From assembly GCF_004022265.1 (NCBI RefSeq), contig NZ_SAVB01000004.1:124001-188000 (forward strand): a stretch of 64,000 nucleotides of DNA, written 5' to 3'. The notes under the pieces were generated by a model. The model was not told the origin of the DNA, ran no database searches, and worked only from the letters and a program-made list of their open reading frames with translations. Made by a program: the position numbers and the translations under genes. Below are positions 47,141 to 58,492 of this stretch, piece by piece. Position 1 is the first letter of the stretch. Every line of letters starts with the position of its first letter. This DNA is from Paenirhodobacter ferrireducens. Lineage in GTDB: Bacteria > Pseudomonadota > Alphaproteobacteria > Rhodobacterales > Rhodobacteraceae.

Positions 47141-47440
47141 CGGGCGGAGCTCCGCAAGGGTCACGACGGGGAGCGGGCCCCGACAGCGGCAGCATATCGC
47201 AGCGCGCCGGCCGAGAACACGCGGATTGCCGCCACGGTTTCCGCCGGGCCGTAAACATCTTGTCAATAAATTGAAAAATATCGGATTTTGCTCCGACGAA
47301 ACAGTCGAAGACAGCGCATGGCCGCGTTGACAGAGCGGGGCTTTCGCGTCAGCCTGCGCGCAACCGCAACGCCGGCCCCTCCCTGCCGACCCCGCGTCCC
47401 GACGCGCCGGCGCGGGAACCGTTCCGGAAGGAGATCGCGC

Positions 47441-48463
47441 ATGATCCGTACAAAACAGGTGTCGCTGACTCGGGCCCTTCTTGTCTGCACCTGCCTCGGC
47501 GCCACGCTGCCCACTGCCGCCGCAGCCGGTGGTTTCTTCGACGATCTGCTGGTCAGACTCGGCCTGCGCGAGGCCGAGACCGCAATCGCCAGCTCGAACG
47601 GCCGGATCGAGGCGCAAAGCGTCGACGTCGCGCCGAAATACGCCGGGCGGATCACCGAGGTTGACGTGCACGAGGGCCAGATCGTCGAGGCGGGCGAGGT
47701 GATCGCGAAGATCGACGACCGTTCCTATCAGGCGCAGCTCTTGGCCGCCGAAGCCTCGGTGCTGCAGGCGAAGGCGGCGAAGGAGCAGGCGCAGGCCGCA
47801 GTGACGCAGGCGCAAAGTGCGCTTTCCGTGGCGCAGACCACCTATGACCGCACCGTCACCCTGCATGCCGAGGGCCACGCCGCGCAAAGCGTGCTGGATG
47901 ACGTGACGAACGCGCTTGAAACCGCGAAGGCGGCGCTTGCCGCGGCGCAGGCGCAGGTCTCGAACGGGGACGCGCTGATCGCTGCGGCCGAGGCGAGCGT
48001 CGAGCAGGTCAAGGTGGCGCTCGACGATCTGACGGTGCGCGCGCCGCTGCGCGGGCGGGTCGAATACCGGCTGCACGAGCCGGGCGAGGTGATCGCCGCG
48101 GGCACGCCGGTGGCGACGCTGCTCGATCTGACCGACGTCTACATGAACCTCTATCTGCCGGCGACGGTGGTCGGCACGCTCGCCTCGAATGACGAGGCGC
48201 GGATGATCCTCGACCCGATCCCGCAATATGTGGTGCCGGCGAAGATCACCTTCATCGCGCCCGAGGCGCAGTTCACGCCAAAGAGCGTCGAGACGCAGGA
48301 AGAGCGCGAACAGCTGGTGTTCCGCGTCAAGCTGACGATCCCGAAGGAGCTGCTCGAGAAGTTCGAGGATCAGGTGAAGGTCGGCGTGCGCGGCATCGGC
48401 TATGTCCGCACCCGCCCCGATGCCGAATGGCCGGCGAACCTTCAAGTCAAACTGCCGCAATAG
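47441..48463 (+). CDS. HlyD-family membrane fusion protein (YhiI-like)
   Basis: 340-residue periplasmic adaptor. A signal peptide or anchor covers residues 1-29; the lipoyl-like halves flank a coiled-coil rich in Ala/Gln/Glu (about 90-190), and AGRITEVDVHEGQIVEAGEVIAKID is the first lipoyl motif. It sits 7 bp before the RbbA-like ABC gene, as yhiI does before rbbA in E. coli, and should link that transporter to the outer membrane. GGAAGGAGATC precedes the ATG. Confidence 0.92.
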   Translation: MIRTKQVSLTRALLVCTCLGATLPTAAAAGGFFDDLLVRLGLREAETAIASSNGRIEAQSVDVAPKYAGRITEVDVHEGQIVEAGEVIAKIDDRSYQAQLLAAEASVLQAKAAKEQAQAAVTQAQSALSVAQTTYDRTVTLHAEGHAAQSVLDDVTNALETAKAALAAAQAQVSNGDALIAAAEASVEQVKVALDDLTVRAPLRGRVEYRLHEPGEVIAAGTPVATLLDLTDVYMNLYLPATVVGTLASNDEARMILDPIPQYVVPAKITFIAPEAQFTPKSVETQEEREQLVFRVKLTIPKELLEKFEDQVKVGVRGIGYVRTRPDAEWPANLQVKLPQ

Positions 48464-48470
48464 GCCGGTC

Positions 48471-51179
48471 ATGAGCTTTGCCGCGGAACTCGAGGGCGTC
48501 AGCCACCGCTACGGATCGACCGCCGCGCTTGCCGACGTGACGCTGAAGATCCCTGCGGGCTGCATGGCCGGGCTGATCGGCCCCGATGGTGTCGGCAAGT
48601 CGAGCCTGCTTGCCCTTGTCTCGGGGGTGCGCAAGCTGCAGTCGGGCACGGTCACGGTGCTGGGTGGGGACATGGCCAGGACCGCCGCGCGCCGGCGTGC
48701 CGCGCCGCGCATCGCCTACATGCCGCAGGGCCTTGGCCGCAACCTCTACCCGACGCTGAGCGTGCGGGAGAACCTCGACTTCTTCGGCCGGCTCTTTGGC
48801 CAGAAGGCGGAGGAACGTGCCGCCCGCATCAAGATGCTGCTCGAGGCGACGGGACTTGCGCCCTTTCCCGACCGGCCGGCGGGCAAGCTGTCGGGCGGCA
48901 TGAAGCAGAAGCTGAGCCTGTGCTGCGCGCTGATCCACGACCCCGATCTGCTGATCCTCGACGAACCGACGACCGGCGTCGACCCGCTGTCGCGGCAGCA
49001 GTTCTGGGAACTGATCGACAGCATCCGCGCCCGCATGCCCGGGATGAGCGTGATCGTCGCCACCGCCTACATGGAGGAGGCCGAGCGCTTCGACTGGCTC
49101 GCCGCGATGGACGACGGCAAGGTGATCGCCCAAGGCACGCCGGCAGAGCTGCGTGCGCAGGCCGGGGCGGAGACACTCGAGGAGGCCTTCATCCGCCTCC
49201 TGCCCGAGGACGAGCGCGCCGGCCACAAGCCGGTCGAGCTGCGCCCCCGCGTCGTCAGCGCAGACAAGGCGCCGGCGATCGAGGCGCGGCACCTGACCAA
49301 GCGCTTCGGCGCCTTCACCGCGGTCGACGACGTCAGCTTCGAGATTCCCGAGGGCGAGATCTTCGGCTTCCTCGGCTCGAACGGCTGCGGCAAGACGACG
49401 ACGATGAAGATGATGACCGGGCTCCTCGACCCCACCGAGGGCGAGACCCGGCTGTTCGGCGAGGAGCTGAAGAATTCCGACATGCAGGCGCGGCTGCGCA
49501 TCGGCTACATGTCGCAAAGCTTCTCGCTTTATACCGAGCTCACGGTGCGGCAGAACCTCGAGCTGCACGCGAAACTCTACGGCGTGGCGCCCGAGCGACG
49601 CGCGGCGCGGGTGAACGAGGTGCTGGCCGAGTTCGAGCTGGACGAGATCGCCCGCGAGATGCCCGAGAGCCTGCCGCTCGGCATCCGCCAGCGGTTGCAG
49701 CTGGCCGTGGCCACGATCCACGAACCGCGGATCCTGATCCTCGACGAGCCGACCTCGGGCGTCGACCCGGTGGCGCGCGACGCGTTCTGGCGCAAGCTGA
49801 TCTCGCTCAGCCGCGACAAGGGCGTGACGATCTTCATCTCGACCCATTTCATGAACGAGGCGGCGCGCTGCGACCGGATCTCGCTGATGCATGCGGGCAA
49901 AGTGCTGGCGGTCGGACGGCCGGCCGATCTGGTTGCCGAGCGGGGCGCACAGACCCTCGAGGCCGCCTTCATCGGCTATCTTCAGGATGCGCTCGGCCCC
50001 GAGCCCGCGGCGGGCAACACCGATTTCGACGGCGCCCGCAGCCCGCGCAGCCCGCTTCGGCAATCGCTGACCCGGCTGTGGGCCTACACCTGGCGCGAAA
50101 CGCTCGAGCTGGTGCGCGACCCGATCCGCCTGTTCTTCGCGCTGATGGGGCCGGTGATCTTGCTGATCACCGTGGGCTACGGCATCTCCTTCGATGTCGA
50201 CGACCTGTCCTTTGCCGTGCTCGATCAGGACCAGACCCCGGAAAGCCGGCGCCTGACCGAACAGTTCAGCGCGATCCGGCAGTTCAGCGAGGAGATGCCG
50301 CTAACCGGCACCGGCGACATGACCGCCCGCATGGGCAAGGGCGAGCTGACCGTCGCGCTCGAGATCCCGAATGGCTTCGGGCGCGAGCTGCATCAGGGCA
50401 AGGTGCCCGAGGTCTCGCTCTGGATTGATGGCTCGATGCCCTTTCGCGCCGAGACCGCGCGAGGCTATGCCCTTGGCCTGCTGACCTATTTCTCCGAAGT
50501 CTATGCGCGCGAGAACGGCAGCGCCGACAGCACGGGCGTTTCGATCGAGACGCGCTATCTGTTCAATCAGGCGTTCAAGAGCACCAATGCGATCATGCCC
50601 TCGGTGGTGATGCTGATCCTGATCATGATCCCGGCGGTGATGTCGGCGATCGGTGTCGTGCGCGAGGTCGAAACCGGCACCATCGCCAATTTCCGCTCCA
50701 CCCCGATCCGCAAGATCGAGTTCCTGCTCGGCAAGCAGATCCCCTACATCGTGATCGCGACCCTCAATTTCTGGATGCTCTTCGCGCTCGGCATGGTGCT
50801 GTTCCGGCCCCCCTTCACCGGCTCGCTCGTCGCGCTGGCGGCGGTGACGCTGCTTTACGTGATCGCCACCACCGGGATCGGCCAGCTGATCTCGTCCTTC
50901 ACCAAGACCCAGGTCTCGGCGGTGTTTGCCGTCGCGGTGATCACCATCATCCCGACAGTGAACTTCTCCGGGCTGATCGTGCCGATCTCCTCGCTGCAGC
51001 CGAGCGGCCATGCCCTTGGCCTCGCCTTCCCCGGCGCCTGGTATCAGACGGTGTCGATGGGCACCTTCCTGAAGGGCTTCGGCTGGGCCGATATCGGCGT
51101 CAACACCCTGGCAATCGCCGGCTTCGCCCTTTTCTACATCGTCGCCGCGGTCTTTGCGCTGCGCAAGCAGGAGGCCTGA
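48471..51179 (+). CDS. rbbA: RbbA-like double ABC ATPase fused to permease
   Basis: 902-residue protein. First ABC domain (1-240): GPDGVGKSSLL and LSGGMKQKLSLCCAL; second (265-500): LGSNGCGKTTTM, LPLGIRQRLQLAVA (degenerate signature) and LILDEPTSGVDPVARDAFW; then an ABC-2 type permease domain (about 540-902) with six hydrophobic segments. Same architecture and length as E. coli RbbA (ribosome-associated ATPase, about 911 residues). Whether it exports a compound or acts on ribosomes is not resolved by sequence. Overall operon HlyD-RbbA-permease. Confidence 0.92.
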   Translation: MSFAAELEGVSHRYGSTAALADVTLKIPAGCMAGLIGPDGVGKSSLLALVSGVRKLQSGTVTVLGGDMARTAARRRAAPRIAYMPQGLGRNLYPTLSVRENLDFFGRLFGQKAEERAARIKMLLEATGLAPFPDRPAGKLSGGMKQKLSLCCALIHDPDLLILDEPTTGVDPLSRQQFWELIDSIRARMPGMSVIVATAYMEEAERFDWLAAMDDGKVIAQGTPAELRAQAGAETLEEAFIRLLPEDERAGHKPVELRPRVVSADKAPAIEARHLTKRFGAFTAVDDVSFEIPEGEIFGFLGSNGCGKTTTMKMMTGLLDPTEGETRLFGEELKNSDMQARLRIGYMSQSFSLYTELTVRQNLELHAKLYGVAPERRAARVNEVLAEFELDEIAREMPESLPLGIRQRLQLAVATIHEPRILILDEPTSGVDPVARDAFWRKLISLSRDKGVTIFISTHFMNEAARCDRISLMHAGKVLAVGRPADLVAERGAQTLEAAFIGYLQDALGPEPAAGNTDFDGARSPRSPLRQSLTRLWAYTWRETLELVRDPIRLFFALMGPVILLITVGYGISFDVDDLSFAVLDQDQTPESRRLTEQFSAIRQFSEEMPLTGTGDMTARMGKGELTVALEIPNGFGRELHQGKVPEVSLWIDGSMPFRAETARGYALGLLTYFSEVYARENGSADSTGVSIETRYLFNQAFKSTNAIMPSVVMLILIMIPAVMSAIGVVREVETGTIANFRSTPIRKIEFLLGKQIPYIVIATLNFWMLFALGMVLFRPPFTGSLVALAAVTLLYVIATTGIGQLISSFTKTQVSAVFAVAVITIIPTVNFSGLIVPISSLQPSGHALGLAFPGAWYQTVSMGTFLKGFGWADIGVNTLAIAGFALFYIVAAVFALRKQEA

Positions 51180-51183
51180 GCCG

Positions 51184-52308
51184 ATGTGGCGAAGCCTGCT
51201 CAACACCCTGCGCCTGACCGGCAAGGAACTGCGCGCAATCCGGCGTGACACGGTGATGCTGGTGCTGATCTTCTACGTCTTCACCGTGGCCACCTACATG
51301 GTGGCCGACGCGATCTCGACCGAGATCAACGACCTCGCCGTTGCCGTTGTCGACGAGGACCAGAGCACATTGTCGCACCGGCTCACCGATGCGATCCAGC
51401 CGCCGCTGTTCAAGCATCCGGTAAGCCTGACCCCGGCGCAGGCGGAACAGGCGCTGAAATACGGCGATTACATCCTCGTCGTCTCCTTCCCGCCGAAGTT
51501 CGAAAGCGACCTGCTGTCCGGCCACGCGGCGACGCTCTCGATCGACGTGGATGCGACCGCGGTGGCCCATGCCGGCAATGGCGCCGCCTTCATGCAGGAG
51601 CTGCTGGCGGGCGAGCTTTCCACCTTCTTCACCCCGAACGGCTCTGCCGCCTCACTCGTCGACGTGGTGTTCCGCAACCGCTTCAACCCGAACCTGACCT
51701 CGAAATGGTTCACCTCGGTGATGCAGCTGATGAACTCGGTCACCATCCTCACACTGATCCTCGCCGGCGCCTCGCTGATCCGCGAGCGCGAACATGGCAC
51801 GATCGAGCATGTCCTGGTGATGCCGGTGCGCCCGCATGAGATCGTCTTCTCGAAGATTCTCGCGAATGGCGCCGTGATTCTCGGGGCCTCCGTCTTCAGC
51901 CTGCTGGTGGTCATCCAGTGGCTGATCGGGGTGCCGCTGGCGCAAGGCGTGCTGCCGCTCTTCATCGCGGGCACCGCGATCTATGTCATCGCCGTCGCCT
52001 CGATCGGGCTTCTGCTGTCGACCTTCACCCATACGATGGGGCAGTTCGGCCTGCTCATCATCCCGGTGATCATCGTGATGATCCTGCTCTCGGGCGGCAT
52101 GACGCCGATGGAATCGATGCCCGGCTGGCTGCGCGTGCTGATGCAGCTGATCAGCCCCGCGCCGCATTTCGTCGCCTTCACCCAGTCGGTTCTCTACCGC
52201 GGCGCGGGTCTTGCCCTGGTCGCCTGGGAGATCGCGGCGATGGCGGCAATGGCGGCAATGGCACTGGCCGTGGCGCTCGCCCGTTTCCGCCGGGTGCTGG
52301 CAAATTGA
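51184..52308 (+). CDS. ABC-2 type permease (YhhJ-like)
   Basis: 374-residue permease with one N-terminal membrane segment, a large periplasmic domain (about 45-180) and five C-terminal segments. LIREREHGTIEHVLVMPVRPHEI is the conserved coupling region. It completes the HlyD/RbbA/permease set four bases after the rbbA stop, the counterpart of E. coli yhhJ. Confidence 0.93.
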   Translation: MWRSLLNTLRLTGKELRAIRRDTVMLVLIFYVFTVATYMVADAISTEINDLAVAVVDEDQSTLSHRLTDAIQPPLFKHPVSLTPAQAEQALKYGDYILVVSFPPKFESDLLSGHAATLSIDVDATAVAHAGNGAAFMQELLAGELSTFFTPNGSAASLVDVVFRNRFNPNLTSKWFTSVMQLMNSVTILTLILAGASLIREREHGTIEHVLVMPVRPHEIVFSKILANGAVILGASVFSLLVVIQWLIGVPLAQGVLPLFIAGTAIYVIAVASIGLLLSTFTHTMGQFGLLIIPVIIVMILLSGGMTPMESMPGWLRVLMQLISPAPHFVAFTQSVLYRGAGLALVAWEIAAMAAMAAMALAVALARFRRVLAN

Positions 52309-52438
52309 TCCGATCGGCCAACCTGTTGCAGGAAGGACAGAACTCGCGCATAGCGTGTAGTCCACTCTGGCGCCGCCGGAATAATTGTGTGACAGTCAGC
52401 GGATACTGTCGGCGACGGCGAGCGCGAAAAAGAAAAGA

Positions 52439-55291
52439 ATGATGCCCGACAAGAACCGCATCAGACGAATCAACCTGATGATCGAGTTGGCGACCTATGT
52501 CGCCATCATGCTCGCATTCGTGTCGCTGTCCTACAACCTCGAACGGTTCTCGCGGCTTGCGGCGCAGGACCAGCAGATGGCCGGCCTTTATACCGCGCAG
52601 ACCCAGATCACCGAGCGCATCCACGAGGCGGTAAACCGCAAGGAGCTGTTCGCGCGCGGCATCGCGGCGGCAGTGGCGCTGCGCCCGAACATCTCGGAGC
52701 AGGAATTCGCGCGGCTCTCGTCCGGCATCCAGCTCGAGGACCCCTCCGTCGTCAACATGGCGCTGGTGCGCGACAAGTTCATCACCCATGTTTACCCCGA
52801 AGAAGAGAACCTCAGCCTGATCGGGCGCGACCTGCGCGACGTTCCGCGCCAGAGCGCCGTGCTCGACCGCATCGCCCGGACCGGCAAGTCTGCCCTCGAC
52901 GGCCCGATCTCGCTGTTGCAGGGCTACACCGGCTTCATCCTGCGCGAGCCGGTCTTCCTGCTCGGGGATGATGGCGACACCGGCCAGTTCTGGGCCGTCG
53001 CTTCGATCGTGTTCAACAAGGACACCTTCCTGGGCGAGCTTGGCCTCAACGACTTCAGCAAAGACTACCAGATCACCATCCGCGCCCACAACATGCTCGG
53101 CGACGAACGCACCATCTATGGCGACAACGCGGTCTTCGCCCGCAATCCGGCAGTCCAGCAGCTCCGCCTGCCCTCCTCGATCTGGACCATCGCCCTCGTG
53201 CCGGCGGCCGGCTGGGACGCCGTCCCCGCCCAGACCGAACGCAACCGGATGCTGACCGGCATCGCAATGATCGTCACCCTGGCGATGGCGTGGTACCTGA
53301 ACCGGCTGCGGGCCGCGAACTGGCGCAGCGCGGCGCAGCTGCGTGCGGCGGTGAATGTGCTGCAGTCGGGCTTCGTGCTCTTCGACCGCAATGACCGGCT
53401 GCAGATCTGCAACGAGCGCTACCGCGAGATCCACGGCCCGGCGAGCGACGCCGTTGTCAAGGGCGCGACCTTCGAGAGTATCCTGCGCGAAGGGCTGCGC
53501 CACGGCCTCTACCCCGATGCCACCGGCCACGAGGAGGCCTGGCTTAGCAAGCACCTCGCCCGTGGCGACCACAAGGCGAGCCGGTTCGAGCTCGAGCTCA
53601 GCAACGGCCACTGGCTGCAGATCCTCGAGCAGGAAACGCCCACCGGCGGCCGCGTCGCGGTGCTGAACGACATCACCGAGCTGCTGCACAGCCGCCAGCG
53701 CGCGCAGCTGGCCGAACAGCGCCTGTTCGACGCGATCGACGCGCTGCCGGTGGGCTTCTGGCTGTTCGATGCCGAAGACCGGCTGATCATGTTCAACCGC
53801 GTCGCCGGCAACATGCTGCCCGGCATGCAGCGCGCGCTGAAGGAAGGCCGCAATCTGGCCGAGCTGGTCGAGCGCCGCGCCGCGATCTCGAAGGAGATGC
53901 TGATCGGCGGCCGCCCGGCCACCAGCCCGCACGAGATCCTCGACAACCTGCACGCCGAGACCTCCGAGCTCGAGGTCTGCTATGACGGCGATCTGTGGTT
54001 CCGCTATTACACCCGCCGGACGTCGGAGAACGGGCTGGTGATGTTCCGCATCGAGCTGACCGACCTGCGCCGCCATCAGCGCCAGATCGAGACCTCGAAT
54101 ACCGAGCTGCGCGCGGCGCTGGCCGAGCGCGATGCCGCCGAGAGCCGCTTCCGCGACGTGGCCGACATCAGCACCGAATGGTTCTGGGAGCAGGACGAAC
54201 ACCTGCAGTTCACCTATCTTTCGGAAGGCTTCCGCCGCGCGATGGGACGTGATCCCGCCGATTTCATCGGCTGTTCCCGCGTCGAGCTTCTGGTCGAGCC
54301 GGACGGCAGCCCCGAGGCGGAGAACCTGATCGCCCTGCGCCAGACGATGGAGCGCCACGAGCCGTTCAAGGACGTGGTCTACAGCTATCGTTTCCATCCC
54401 GACCGCGAATCCTGGATCCGCACCAGCGGTAAGCCGGTCTTCGCCAAGGACGGCAGTTTCCGCGGCTACATCGGTACCGCGGCGGACGTGACGCAGTTCT
54501 ATGCCGCGCTGCGCCGCGCCGAACAGGCCGACGAGGCCAAGACCCAGTTCCTGAACATCATCAGCCATGAACTGCGCACACCGCTGACCGTGGTCACCGG
54601 CTTCAACAGCTTCATCTACAACTCGGACCGCCTGCCCTCCTACGTCACCTTGCACAAGCTGCTCGAGGCGCAGGACAACCCCTCGCTGCGGCGGCTGTTC
54701 GACGCCTATCGCACCGACATCCGCTCCTTCTCCGACCGGATCCGCAATGCCGGGGTGCAGCTGCAGACGCTGATCGACGACATGCTCGACCTCGCCCGGA
54801 TCGAGGCGAACACGATGCGCATCGAGACCACGCGCGTGGACAGCCTGCGGGTGACGCAATCTGTCCTCGACCAGATGCAGTCGATGGCCGCCGAGAAGCA
54901 CCTCGAACTGCGCTGCGAGATGGCTGACCTGCCGATCGCCGCCGACGAAATGCGCTTCCGCCAGATCCTGACCAACCTGCTCGGCAACGCGCTGAAGTTC
55001 ACCGATCACGGCTCGATCACCGTGCGCAACGAGCGCCAGGGCGACATGGTGGTGTTCCGGGTCGAGGATACCGGCATCGGCATTTCCCACGACAAGCTCT
55101 CGATCATCTTCGACCGTTTCGCCCAGGTCAACGAGGGCACTGGCACCACGCGCCGCAACCAGGGCGTGGGCCTTGGTCTGGCGATCTGCAAGGACCTGAC
55201 GCGGCTGCAGGGCGGCTGGATCCGCGCCGAAAGCCGGCTCGGCGAGGGCAGCACCCTGATCTTCGCCCTGCCCGCCTGGAAGGACGCCTGA
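52439..55291 (+). CDS. CHASE/PAS sensor histidine kinase
   Basis: 950-residue membrane sensor kinase. Membrane segments at about 12-32 and 271-289 flank a CHASE-like periplasmic sensor; three PAS-type domains follow (about 303-415, 430-545, 560-690), the first two of the PAS-7 style. HisKA has FLNIISHELRTPLTVVTG with His710, and the HATPase has NLLGNALKFTDHG, VEDTGIGIS and GVGLGLAICKDL. No receiver domain is attached. The start is one of two adjacent ATGs (52439/52442) after a weak AAGAAAAG site. A TTGCAG-17-CATAGC promoter-like pair lies at 52326-52354. The ligand is unknown. Confidence 0.92.
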   Translation: MMPDKNRIRRINLMIELATYVAIMLAFVSLSYNLERFSRLAAQDQQMAGLYTAQTQITERIHEAVNRKELFARGIAAAVALRPNISEQEFARLSSGIQLEDPSVVNMALVRDKFITHVYPEEENLSLIGRDLRDVPRQSAVLDRIARTGKSALDGPISLLQGYTGFILREPVFLLGDDGDTGQFWAVASIVFNKDTFLGELGLNDFSKDYQITIRAHNMLGDERTIYGDNAVFARNPAVQQLRLPSSIWTIALVPAAGWDAVPAQTERNRMLTGIAMIVTLAMAWYLNRLRAANWRSAAQLRAAVNVLQSGFVLFDRNDRLQICNERYREIHGPASDAVVKGATFESILREGLRHGLYPDATGHEEAWLSKHLARGDHKASRFELELSNGHWLQILEQETPTGGRVAVLNDITELLHSRQRAQLAEQRLFDAIDALPVGFWLFDAEDRLIMFNRVAGNMLPGMQRALKEGRNLAELVERRAAISKEMLIGGRPATSPHEILDNLHAETSELEVCYDGDLWFRYYTRRTSENGLVMFRIELTDLRRHQRQIETSNTELRAALAERDAAESRFRDVADISTEWFWEQDEHLQFTYLSEGFRRAMGRDPADFIGCSRVELLVEPDGSPEAENLIALRQTMERHEPFKDVVYSYRFHPDRESWIRTSGKPVFAKDGSFRGYIGTAADVTQFYAALRRAEQADEAKTQFLNIISHELRTPLTVVTGFNSFIYNSDRLPSYVTLHKLLEAQDNPSLRRLFDAYRTDIRSFSDRIRNAGVQLQTLIDDMLDLARIEANTMRIETTRVDSLRVTQSVLDQMQSMAAEKHLELRCEMADLPIAADEMRFRQILTNLLGNALKFTDHGSITVRNERQGDMVVFRVEDTGIGISHDKLSIIFDRFAQVNEGTGTTRRNQGVGLGLAICKDLTRLQGGWIRAESRLGEGSTLIFALPAWKDA

Positions 55292-55519
55292 CCCCGCCGG
55301 CAAGCCCCGGAGGCGATCCGCGTCGAAACGGCGGCACCGTGCCACGATTTCGACCTTTTCTATCCATAGTCCCGGACCAATTCGGTGCGACACCTGATGT
55401 TAACCACGAAGAAGCGGTGTCCCCCCGGGGTCTCCGGTCGGTAGAATCGGGCTGCAACGAGGTTCGGCATCCGACGGCACGGCGTTCAGGGGCTGATCAT
55501 TGATGGGGTTTTGTTGACG

Positions 55520-57037
55520 ATGGAACAGTCTGTTCGACTTGCCGTCCCGGCTGCGCCTGGGGCTTTTTCGCGCACGGCGCTTGCGTCGCTACAGGGGATG
55601 ACCAAAGCGACGGCGGACGCCGGCATCGCTCCGCCGGATCCGACCGGGGACGCAGGCGCGCGGCAGGTGATGGACGGCAATGCCATGGTCATCGTCTCCG
55701 GCCCGGATGGCCGGATCCGCGAGGTCAGCGAGAAATTCCTGCACGCCACCGGCTACCGCCGCGAGGAGCTGCTCGGCATGATCGCCGAGCGCCTCTATGC
55801 GGACGAGGGCGGGGTGCTGTGCGCCGAGATCCGCGAGACCACCGGTCAGGGCCGGATCTGGTCGGGGGCGCCGCAGGTCAGGGCCGCCAACGGCCACCTG
55901 CTCGGCACCCGCTGTGTCATCGTCCCGGTGCTCGACCCCGACGGCCGGAGCCGGCGCAACGTGGCGCTGCACCTCGAACTGACCGGCGCCCGGCTGACCC
56001 AGATGGAGCACATGATTGCCTCGGCCTTCAACAAGATGCGCGAGGCCGTCTATGTCGTCGACCCGGCCACGCAATACCTGTGCTTCATGAACGACTTCGC
56101 GCTGCACGAGCAGGGCTGGTGCCTGGGCGAGATCGGCACGCGCACCATGGCCGACACCGATTACCATGCCGAAAAGCAGGTGATCGACGATCTCTTCCGC
56201 ATGGTCGAAAGCGACGGCAAAGGCTCGGCCCTGTTCCAGTCGGACCACGGCGCGCGCACCTGCGAGGCCCAGGCCTATGCAATCACCACCGAAACCGGGC
56301 ACCATCGCATCCTGCTGCTGCTGCGCGACATCTCGCTGCAGGCCAAAGCCGAGCGCGACCGCAAGGAGTTGCTTGCGGTCATCACCCACGAGCTGCGCAC
56401 GCCGCTGACCAGCATCAAGGGCGCGCTCGAGCTGCTGAAGGCCGGGGCCGTCGGTGCGCTTTCCGAGCAGGCAAACTCGCTCGTCACCATCGCTGCGAAC
56501 AACAGCGAGCGCATGCTCGGCCTGATCCGCGACATCCTCGACATGGAAGAGATCGGCCAGGACAGCTTCGAAATCGAGAGCGAGCCGGTCGATCTGAGTG
56601 CGCTGGTGCGCAACGCGATCGAGGCGCACCGCGGCTATGGCGCGCATCTGGGCGTCAGCTTCATCGACGGCGGCACCACGCCGGGGGTCTTCGTCCTGGC
56701 CGAACCCGTGCGCCTGGCACAGGTCCTGTCGAACCTGCTGTCGAATGCCGCCAAGGTCACCGCACCGGGCGGCACGATCGAGATCTGGGCCAGCCGCGAG
56801 GCAGGCTGCGGCGTGATCTACGTGCGCGACCACGGCCCCGGCATCCCGCTGCAGCTGCGCGACAAGCTGTTCAGCCGCTTCACCAAGTCCGAGGCGCCGA
56901 ACCGCTCGCGCGTGTCGGGATCGGGGCTTGGGCTGAGCATCGTGAAAACCATTGTGGAGAAGCTCGACGGCGAAATCAGCTTCTCAACCGAGACCGGCAA
57001 GGGCACCACCTTCCGGGTAGCGCTGCCGTCGCTCTGA
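55520..57037 (+). CDS. Cytosolic PAS histidine kinase
   Basis: 505-residue kinase without membrane segments. PAS domain 1 about 51-155 (AMVIVSGPDGRIREVSEKFLHATGYRREELLG region), a second PAS-like domain about 165-275, HisKA with LLAVITHELRTPLTSIKG (His290), and HATPase with LSNLLSNAAKVTAPGG, VRDHGPGIP and SGLGLSIVKTIVE. No heme- or flavin-binding Cys/His motif is obvious. 228 bp separate it from the first kinase, so it likely has its own promoter. It converges on the Hpt/response-regulator pair. Confidence 0.92.
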   Translation: MEQSVRLAVPAAPGAFSRTALASLQGMTKATADAGIAPPDPTGDAGARQVMDGNAMVIVSGPDGRIREVSEKFLHATGYRREELLGMIAERLYADEGGVLCAEIRETTGQGRIWSGAPQVRAANGHLLGTRCVIVPVLDPDGRSRRNVALHLELTGARLTQMEHMIASAFNKMREAVYVVDPATQYLCFMNDFALHEQGWCLGEIGTRTMADTDYHAEKQVIDDLFRMVESDGKGSALFQSDHGARTCEAQAYAITTETGHHRILLLLRDISLQAKAERDRKELLAVITHELRTPLTSIKGALELLKAGAVGALSEQANSLVTIAANNSERMLGLIRDILDMEEIGQDSFEIESEPVDLSALVRNAIEAHRGYGAHLGVSFIDGGTTPGVFVLAEPVRLAQVLSNLLSNAAKVTAPGGTIEIWASREAGCGVIYVRDHGPGIPLQLRDKLFSRFTKSEAPNRSRVSGSGLGLSIVKTIVEKLDGEISFSTETGKGTTFRVALPSL

Positions 57038-57059
57038 TCCTCCGCCCCGCCGGGGCGCA

Positions 57060-57108
57060 CCCCAGACGAAGGCCGCCGGCACCGAGTGCAGGCGGCCTTC
57101 GTCTGGGG
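57060..57108. terminator. Long perfect inverted repeat, probable bidirectional terminator
   Basis: 18-bp perfect arms, from CCCCAGACGAAGG at 57060 to CCTTCGTCTGGGG ending at 57108, with a 13-nt loop. It sits between two convergent genes and could end both transcripts. There is no T-run on either side, so it is not a canonical intrinsic terminator. Confidence 0.6.
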
Positions 57109-57122
57109 GCGGGATAAGGGAA

Positions 57123-57482
57123 TCAGCCGTCGAAGGCCGCGTCTTCCATCAGATCCATCAGCCGCTCGAGCATGGCCGACAACCCGGTCGGCACCCTCGG
57201 CCGCGGCGTGCGCAGCAGGCGCTGCAGCTGCAGGTCGAGCGCCGCCGCCTGCGCACCAAGATCGGGAAAGCCGACGGTCGCGGCAACGCCGCTGATCTTG
57301 TGAATGATGGCCGCCAGCCTGCCGATCGCCCCGGCGAGCTGACCGGGCTCGTCAAGCGCCGCCTGCAGCCGTTCGATCTCGACGATCTGCGGCACGAGGC
57401 GCCGGATGAACTGCTCCCGTGCATCGGCCAGCGCCTTCGCCAGCTGGGCCGGCATCGGTCCGGAGAAGGAAGGAGCAGGCAT
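57123..57482 (-). CDS. Stand-alone histidine phosphotransfer (Hpt) protein
   Basis: 119-residue helical protein. AAIIHKISGVAATVGFPDL (about 58-76) matches the Hpt active-site helix, with His61, a Lys at +1, Gly at +4 and Gly at +10. The rest is helical with no other domain, so it should shuttle phosphate between receiver domains. It starts 26 bp after the response-regulator gene on the same strand, indicating an operon. Confidence 0.82.
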   Translation of the reverse strand: MPAPSFSGPMPAQLAKALADAREQFIRRLVPQIVEIERLQAALDEPGQLAGAIGRLAAIIHKISGVAATVGFPDLGAQAAALDLQLQRLLRTPRPRVPTGLSAMLERLMDLMEDAAFDG

Positions 57483-57508
57483 GAGCGTCGCCTTTGCGGC
57501 AGGGAGCC

Positions 57509-58492
57509 TCAGTTGAACAGACCGCGGAACTGCTGCAGCGCGCCCGACCGCGTCCGGGTCTGAGCGTAGGCCTGCGAGATCGTCTTCGCAATCAGGTCCT
57601 TCGGGCTCGTGTCGAACATCGAGGTATGGACCTGATCGCCGACCGAGACCGAGACGTTCATCGGCAGCCCGCAATCGATCGTCAGGCCGAATTCCGCCAG
57701 CGTCATGCCCAGCGCCACCTCGAGATCCTCGCGCTCGATGTCGTTCACCCGCGGCACGATCGCGACAAAGCTGCCGTTACCGTAATAGGTGATCATCACC
57801 TCGAGATGGCGCAGGTTCTCGAACACCGCCTCGGCGACGTCGGTCAGGATGCCGCGAAACTCGGACGGGCTGCTCATCGAATAGAGGCTTTCCACCCGGC
57901 GGATCTGGAAGCCGACCGCCGCCACCATGAAGCGGCGCAGACGGCTGAGCCGGTGCAGATAGTTTTCCATGGCAAGCGCGTTGATGACCCGCGGCACATC
58001 GTAAAGCGTGATCGGATCAGCCAGTTCGAAGGGCACGGCCTGGCCCTGTTGCAGGCTGTCGATCTCGGAGCGCAGCGCCTGCGCCGCCTTCACCGAATCG
58101 GAGGCGCGCTGCTGCTCGGAATAGAGCACCTGCGCCACCCGCAGCCGCGCGCCGAGTTCCTGCACTTCGATCGGCTTGGTGATGTAATCGGTGGCGCCGG
58201 TGGCAAAGGCTGCGTCGATGAACGGCTTCTCGGTGACCGAGGTCAGCATCAGGATCGGCGTGCGCCGGTGCAGCGGATTGGCGCGGATATGGCGGACGAG
58301 CTCGATCCCGTCCATCCCCGGCATCTTGATGTCGAGCAGGAAGGTGCTGAACAGATCACCGCCACGGCCGATCTTCTGCAACGCTTCCTCGCCGCTCATC
58401 GCATATTGCACATCAGCGTAACCGAGAGAGGACAGGACCCCTTCCATCAGCCGCAGGATGATCGGGTCGTCGTCGACCACAAGCAGTGCCAT
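57509..58492 (-). CDS. Response regulator with degenerate GGDEF-like output domain
   Basis: 327-residue protein. The receiver domain (1-125) has Asp7/Asp8, phospho-acceptor Asp54 in FLLDIKMPGMDG, Thr/Ser in LMLTSVT and Lys106 in ITKPIE: all expected residues are present. The second half (about 170-327) resembles a diguanylate cyclase fold but with YGNGSFVAIVP where GGDEF is expected and VSVSVGDQVHTS near the end, so catalytic activity is unlikely. ATG at 58492. Transcribed with the Hpt gene. Confidence 0.83.
   Translation of the reverse strand: MALLVVDDDPIILRLMEGVLSSLGYADVQYAMSGEEALQKIGRGGDLFSTFLLDIKMPGMDGIELVRHIRANPLHRRTPILMLTSVTEKPFIDAAFATGATDYITKPIEVQELGARLRVAQVLYSEQQRASDSVKAAQALRSEIDSLQQGQAVPFELADPITLYDVPRVINALAMENYLHRLSRLRRFMVAAVGFQIRRVESLYSMSSPSEFRGILTDVAEAVFENLRHLEVMITYYGNGSFVAIVPRVNDIEREDLEVALGMTLAEFGLTIDCGLPMNVSVSVGDQVHTSMFDTSPKDLIAKTISQAYAQTRTRSGALQQFRGLFN

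Follow-up and report, generated by a model that had tools for sequence, protein, structure and literature searches.

We analysed a stretch of 64,000 nucleotides from Paenirhodobacter ferrireducens (referred to as the window; contig NZ_SAVB01000004.1, positions 124,001 to 188,000 of the forward strand), in which four signalling genes between positions 52439 and 58492 probably belong to a phosphorelay with one further component encoded elsewhere in the genome. Two histidine kinase genes on the plus strand converge on two minus-strand genes, for a stand-alone histidine phosphotransfer protein (Hpt) and a response regulator (RR). The first kinase, HK1 (52439..55291, starting at the in-frame ATG at 52439 of an open reading frame spanning 52385-55291), is a membrane protein in which a CHASE domain is followed by PAS_7, further PAS, HisKA and HATPase_c domains; its transmembrane helices were recognised by reading of the sequence. 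The second kinase, HK2 (55511..57037), is soluble and consists of PAS, HisKA and HATPase_c domains. The Pfam search detected HisKA and HATPase_c in both kinases and a receiver domain in neither, and the catalytic motifs of the two were checked by sequence reading alone. The Hpt (57123..57482, 119 aa) exceeded its Pfam cut-off (31.4 against 24.6 bits, scanned on a longer open reading frame), and its presumed phosphoacceptor, His61 in the motif HKISG, is invariant in all 13 aligned sequences. The RR gene (57509..58492) lies 26 bp from that of the Hpt and encodes 327 aa, with a receiver (Response_reg, 90 bits; residues D7, D8, D54, T84, Y103 and K106) and a C-terminal part that has no Pfam match. 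Pfam and sequence reading confirm the gene content, coordinates and convergent layout given in a first-pass annotation of this DNA, which had also noticed that both kinases lack receivers.

The stops of HK2 and the Hpt gene are 85 bp apart (57038..57122), too short a distance for a receiver gene between them. This spacer folds strongly into a hairpin (positions 57036-57125; -64.9 kcal/mol, with a z of -7.9), which is a probable two-way terminator. The same four genes occur in identical order in another genome of the genus (G046). Pfam matches to Hpt numbered four in the window's own genome (G000, a draft assembly of 4.07 Mb in 61 contigs); because the other three are parts of longer frames (642 to 877 aa), the Hpt of the window is probably the sole free-standing one of this genome. 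As for HK1, its HisKA match (residues 718-808) comprises 91 residues against a 66-position model, i.e. about 25 extra residues, and a similarly long match (428-520) was found in the HK1-like kinase of locus L036 (see below). These additional residues could alter the choice of partner.

The RR was modelled by AlphaFold2 with a mean pLDDT of 92.1, and its C-terminal part alone with 92.6. When the whole RR was compared with structures in the PDB, WspR and PleD were the first matches. As the VIA-align result for the full-length protein was filled by receiver domains, the C-terminal part was folded separately. Its best 50 Foldseek rows and best 50 VIA-align rows were all GGDEF-containing structures, most of them by title, and DosP and a few others as carriers of this domain under another name. 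The best match was E. coli DosC (4zve; Z 15.0, rmsd 3.0, 149 residues), and a profile search likewise retrieved GGDEF proteins from PDB sequences (E 5e-6). WspR, PleD and DgcR are diguanylate cyclases composed of a receiver and a GGDEF domain. They share this succession of folds with the RR, being top matches of the whole protein and standing among those of its C-terminal part, but their catalytic motif and I-site are missing in the RR family described here.

The Pfam GGDEF model (E 0.01 or better) was reached by 3 of 44 RR family members, the window RR not being among them. The catalytic motif GG(D/E)EF is absent from all 44: the output domain mostly reads Y-x-G-x-G-x-F, and the metal-binding third position is invariably Gly. 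The c-di-GMP inhibitory site RxxD, whose register was set from the motif with the I-site letters of PleD as reference, has no Asp in any of the 44 sequences and Arg at its first position in only one. Since the metal-binding residue is replaced and the I-site Asp is missing throughout, we reject an active diguanylate cyclase; judged by its sequence, the RR is very unlikely to act as one. Most likely, the output domain would serve as a binding module for a partner protein (or nucleotide) and would not make c-di-GMP. The earlier description of the RR as 'GGDEF-like' is thus borne out for the fold by the structure matches, and fails if an active cyclase was meant. A PhyR-type general stress output was not seen, the output domain being a GGDEF fold. 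With a threshold of 1e-8, the output-domain profile matched 3 of 190 class-wide genomes, all of them listed under the same family as the window.

The distribution of the genes was examined in 100 genomes of the family, standing for 99 genera and including G000. RR matches, counted when they extended past residue 240 and thus included the output domain, were present in 22 genomes according to our own reading of the match list, and the regions around these RRs were fetched (for G000, the window itself). The single Hpt sequence matched 10 of the 100 genomes, each time beside an RR. When profiles built from the first RR and Hpt matches were run on the fetched regions, adjacent RR-Hpt pairs were found in 14 genomes (G000, G046, G036, G055, G012, G049, G092, G044, G006, G009, G025, G091, G087 and G050), the Hpt having been searched with the single sequence only in the remaining 78. 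In 11 of the 14 genomes, the fetched region also encoded a receiver-only protein (loci L036, L037, L038, L039, L040, L045, L046, L048, L050, L052 and L056). None was present in the window, in L035 from the same genus, or in L053, which is an 8-kb contig. In L036 and L040 the convergent order of the window is kept, with a receiver gene inserted between HK2 and Hpt, where the window has its hairpin. Most of these receivers belong to one family of single-domain receivers (SDRRs); those of L038 (G012) and L052 (G091) fall outside it.

A scan of contigs of named genomes, for which we used an RR alignment of 13 rows, every row picked for an Hpt neighbour, gave 80 RR loci, 58 of them with adjacent RR and Hpt. 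From their titles, not from lineages, we take these loci to be Rhodobacterales (e.g. Sulfitobacter, Roseovarius, Loktanella, Cereibacter and Marivita); some are near-duplicates, such as L085 and L087. A free receiver (a receiver-only protein of <200 aa in the available stretch, within 10 kb) accompanied the pair in 51 of the 58 loci. In 42 of these it belonged to the SDRR family, set by BLAST at 41% or more identity to the C33 protein described below, and in nine only a divergent receiver was present (L084, L098, L101, L102, L125, L132, L134, L135 and L155). Kinases with fused receivers (cut-off 1e-15) were detected in 8 of the 58 loci, all eight among the nine with divergent receivers only. 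Such fusions beside the RR-Hpt pair suggest the order kinase, receiver, Hpt, RR. An HK2-like kinase (cut-off >=190 bits, i.e. at least 190) was present in 28 of the 58. Ten proteins, taken from six loci, were scanned with Pfam; the CHASE kinase lacked a receiver in L080 and L036 and had one in L159. The view of the genes as an isolated module is not supported, as the set recurs in many genera and mostly has a free receiver nearby. The HK2-type kinase of L045 (L045:5481-8792) has a PhnD-like binding domain (PF12974) at its N-terminus, which means that lineages differ in the input to this kinase.

Where is the receiver of the window's genus? The receiver of L036 was compared with G000, and its best match by far was found on a contig other than that of the window (G000:C33:1697-2074, 57% identical, E 3e-40; all remaining matches had 36% identity or less, with E 2e-14 at best). 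The corresponding gene (C33:1697-2083) encodes 128 aa with a Response_reg domain and stands between CobW-type and phospholipase-D/cardiolipin-synthase-like genes, named by reading. In G046 this arrangement is repeated, again off the cluster, and the receiver is 98% identical. Among the named loci, the most similar RR is that of UBA6796 (L080), whose proteins are 59% (HK1), 60% (HK2, over 340 residues), 49% (Hpt) and 65% (RR) identical to those of the window. In UBA6796 the receiver gene directly adjoins the RR gene on the opposite strand, and its product is 72.7% identical to the C33 receiver (74.6% when trimmed). In a maximum-likelihood tree of 55 receivers, for which 10 of 65 rows had been removed as divergent, duplicate or fragmentary, the C33, G046 and L080 receivers form one clade with support 100/99. 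On the identity to the UBA6796 receiver and on this clade, the window's genus encodes an ortholog of the module's receiver outside the cluster, and the gene appears to have moved out of the cluster in this genus. A gene at another place in this genome thus probably supplies the missing phosphate-carrying receiver of the chain, much as the first-pass annotation had suggested when it let the Hpt be fed from a receiver elsewhere.

A different role for the C33 protein would be that of a kinase inhibitor like Osp or FixT, with the Hpt fed by a hybrid kinase elsewhere in the genome. Its position beside a cobW-type gene, and the fact that we saw no kinase on the 12.9-kb contig by reading, would fit such a role, and PMC9430884 describes Osp as a single-domain receiver inhibitor in Rhodobacterales. 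According to the same source, however, the acidic residues that precede helix 1 are missing from Osp and FixT. The C33 receiver has them as E11, D12 and D13, and 64 of 65 SDRRs retain D12. An Osp-type inhibitor of CckA was therefore judged unlikely, by comparison with this described feature and not by alignment with Osp, and we give the inhibitor reading as a whole a very low probability.

The receiver family follows the RR-Hpt pair across genomes. At a threshold of 97 bits or more, SDRR family members were present in 12 of the 100 genomes, of which 11 also had the pair (Fisher p 3e-11); matches of about 70 bits in G018 and G080 were not counted. HK2 homologs, counted when they covered PAS and kinase, with at most 15 candidates scored per genome, were found in nine genomes, all nine with the pair (p 1e-9). 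In G087 (pair present) and G062 (pair absent) the HK2 match was confined to the kinase domain and was not counted. The co-occurrence check proposed at the outset thus gave a positive result for RR-Hpt, HK2 and receiver. This bears on the possibility that chance alone placed the genes side by side and that their partners differ. The gene order around the RR-Hpt pair is indeed variable, which would fit a chance arrangement, but a set that recurs in many genera, with co-occurrence far above chance, makes this possibility most improbable.

A more serious alternative consists of two ordinary two-component pairs sharing one regulator. Each kinase would then pass its phosphate straight to the RR, from which the Hpt, alone or together with the distant receiver, would drain it. 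Both kinases have a canonical appearance and adjoin the RR, the window locus has no intermediate receiver, and in L042, L058 and L061, where no Hpt was detected, relatives of the RR from the same family stand beside a single kinase. LovK-LovR of Caulobacter (PMC5964349) also provides a precedent for a phosphate sink that combines an HPt-like protein with a receiver. We nevertheless consider this reading unlikely, as the distribution of the SDRR family follows that of the RR-Hpt pair and the receivers fused to kinases beside the pair point to a relay order. For the Hpt in particular, the association with free receivers suggests a relay step more readily than the mere sink that had been envisaged. 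In L077 (7499-9587) and L160 (6573-9784), SDRR family members were seen as kinase-receiver pairs, the RR-Hpt pair not being in the fetched region, and the L160 kinase itself has receiver matches. The kinase-SDRR and RR-Hpt pairs may hence be two separable cassettes.

The two kinds of receivers differ at the switch position. All 65 SDRRs and all 44 RRs have the phosphoacceptor Asp, and both kinds keep the acidic pocket and the Lys. The switch residue, which precedes this Lys by three positions, is Tyr in all 44 RRs. Val occupies the position in 51 of 54 main-family SDRRs, with one aromatic residue; if the 11 receivers set aside (divergent ones and a fragment) are included, the 65 SDRRs have Val in 53, an aromatic residue in three and a gap in two. 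Following the conserved Thr of beta 4, the C33 receiver has Ala, as do 51 of the 54 family members. The FATGUY motif, to which SdrG and MrrA conform, has Gly directly after this Thr. Gly is found there in only 2 of the 54, so the C33 receiver and its family are set apart from that class. Bruderlin et al. (PMC9981736) describe Thr-Tyr/Phe coupling in terminal receivers and report that this position varies in CckA's intermediary receiver. Because Tyr in RRs and Val in SDRRs fit this pattern, the residues support, without proving, a role of the SDRR as shuttle and of the RR as terminal output.

Taken together, we propose a Spo0-type phosphorelay with four steps (His-Asp-His-Asp) that is conserved across Rhodobacteraceae/Roseobacteraceae and to which we assign a probability of roughly 0.7 on the basis of the sequences compared here. 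According to this model, HK1, responding to a periplasmic signal, and HK2, responding to a cytosolic one, would both phosphorylate one free single-domain receiver, which would hand the phosphate to the Hpt, and the Hpt in turn to the RR. In the window's genus the shuttle would be supplied from C33, beside the cobW-type gene and outside the cluster. Phosphorylated RR would then act through its degenerate GGDEF fold by binding a partner (or nucleotide). The genomes show directly the parts with their phosphorylation residues, how these parts co-occur, that the unlinked receiver is an ortholog, and that the GGDEF motif is broken; from them we infer the direction of phosphate flow and the use of the same receiver by both kinases. 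The idea of a split phosphorelay with two kinases, already raised by the first-pass annotation, is in this way supported.

Several observations weigh against the proposed relay. Fisher tests treat genomes as independent and ignore kinship, and since the rows of the RR alignment were all chosen for their Hpt neighbour, the proportions 58 of 80 and 51 of 58 should not be read as unbiased. Seven of the 58 named loci (L088, L090, L103, L107, L113, L116 and L149) had neither a free receiver nor one that was clearly fused; in L103 the sequence stops 448 bp beyond the RR, L113 is a contig of 3.7 kb, and the other five stretches measure 17-21 kb. The loci with fused receivers, having divergent free receivers only, may represent a sister version of the relay. 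G012, G087 and G091 possess the RR-Hpt pair without an SDRR family member at the threshold, and in G088 an SDRR lies beside a hybrid kinase, in a fetched region that has neither RR nor Hpt. Finally, second SDRR copies exist in G036, G009 and G092, and the SDRR family may therefore serve other pathways besides this relay.

The sporulation relay of Bacillus subtilis runs from KinA-E through Spo0F and Spo0B to Spo0A. It resembles the proposed relay in having several kinases, a free receiver as shuttle, a phosphotransferase, a terminal regulator and scattered genes, and differs in its lineage, in having Spo0B instead of a Pfam-type Hpt, and in its DNA-binding output instead of a degenerate GGDEF domain. 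Among alphaproteobacteria, relays that pass through a free single-domain receiver are the Pak - SdrG - PhyT - PhyR chain of Sphingomonas, in which the genes for SdrG and Pak lie at scattered positions (PMC5898713), and that of Caulobacter, where MrrA links kinases to PhyK/LovK and is phosphorylated by at least six kinases (PMC5964349). Both use a kinase-derived phosphotransferase and end at PhyR, unlike the true Hpt and dead GGDEF domain found here. The accessible text of PMC11481889 further describes Caulobacter HmrA/HmrX/HmrB as a putative relay with lone Hpt-like proteins, linked to lifestyle control. The lone Hpt is a common feature, but that relay starts at a hybrid kinase, and no terminal regulator of the present kind is named in that text.

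The neighbourhoods of the RR-Hpt pair gave no general target from which a function could be deduced, as the commonest non-signalling clusters (one TRAP-transporter-like by reading, one LuxI-type) reach only 9 of 59 loci each. The LuxI-type family lies near the pair in 9 of the 58 named loci (L089, L090, L097, L108, L121, L136, L140, L143 and L159), and the two members that were scanned, L089:7016-7624 and L090:7470-8255, are LuxI-type autoinducer synthases (PF00765). Orphan luxI genes of roseobacters with adjacent kinase genes have been described as topologies H, I and J in the review PMC3824088, and some of our loci may perhaps be the same; the term Hpt is absent from this review.

Two further observations concern the window and its genus. 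Within the genus, where the clustered genes of the window were compared with contig C51 of G046, RR and SDRR are each 98% and HK2 86% identical, and Hpt only 75%; the Hpt has thus evolved much faster than the receivers expected to contact it. Just upstream of HK1, positions 47288-52308 of the plus strand read as an ABC exporter set, consisting of an adaptor-like protein, a double ATPase fused to a permease, and a second permease (only this last one was scanned with Pfam). The ATPase and the last permease are also present in L035, and the set might be co-transcribed with HK1.

In summary, an odd four-gene cluster becomes a putative five-gene circuit, whose RR-Hpt core occurs in 14 of 100 family genomes and for whose missing part the C33 receiver is the named candidate. 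A response regulator family with a predicted inactive GGDEF output is defined at the same time. Our literature search recognised no description of this relay. We tentatively raise the possibility, which we hold somewhat below even odds, that it represents an undescribed Spo0-type relay specific to Rhodobacterales, in which a dead GGDEF domain became a phosphorylation-controlled binding module, and in which the shuttle, released from the cluster in this genus, may be a hub shared with other kinases, an instance of natural phosphorelay rewiring. Relatives with the receiver inside and outside the cluster would offer a natural case for following the fate of a phosphorelay after relocation of its shuttle.

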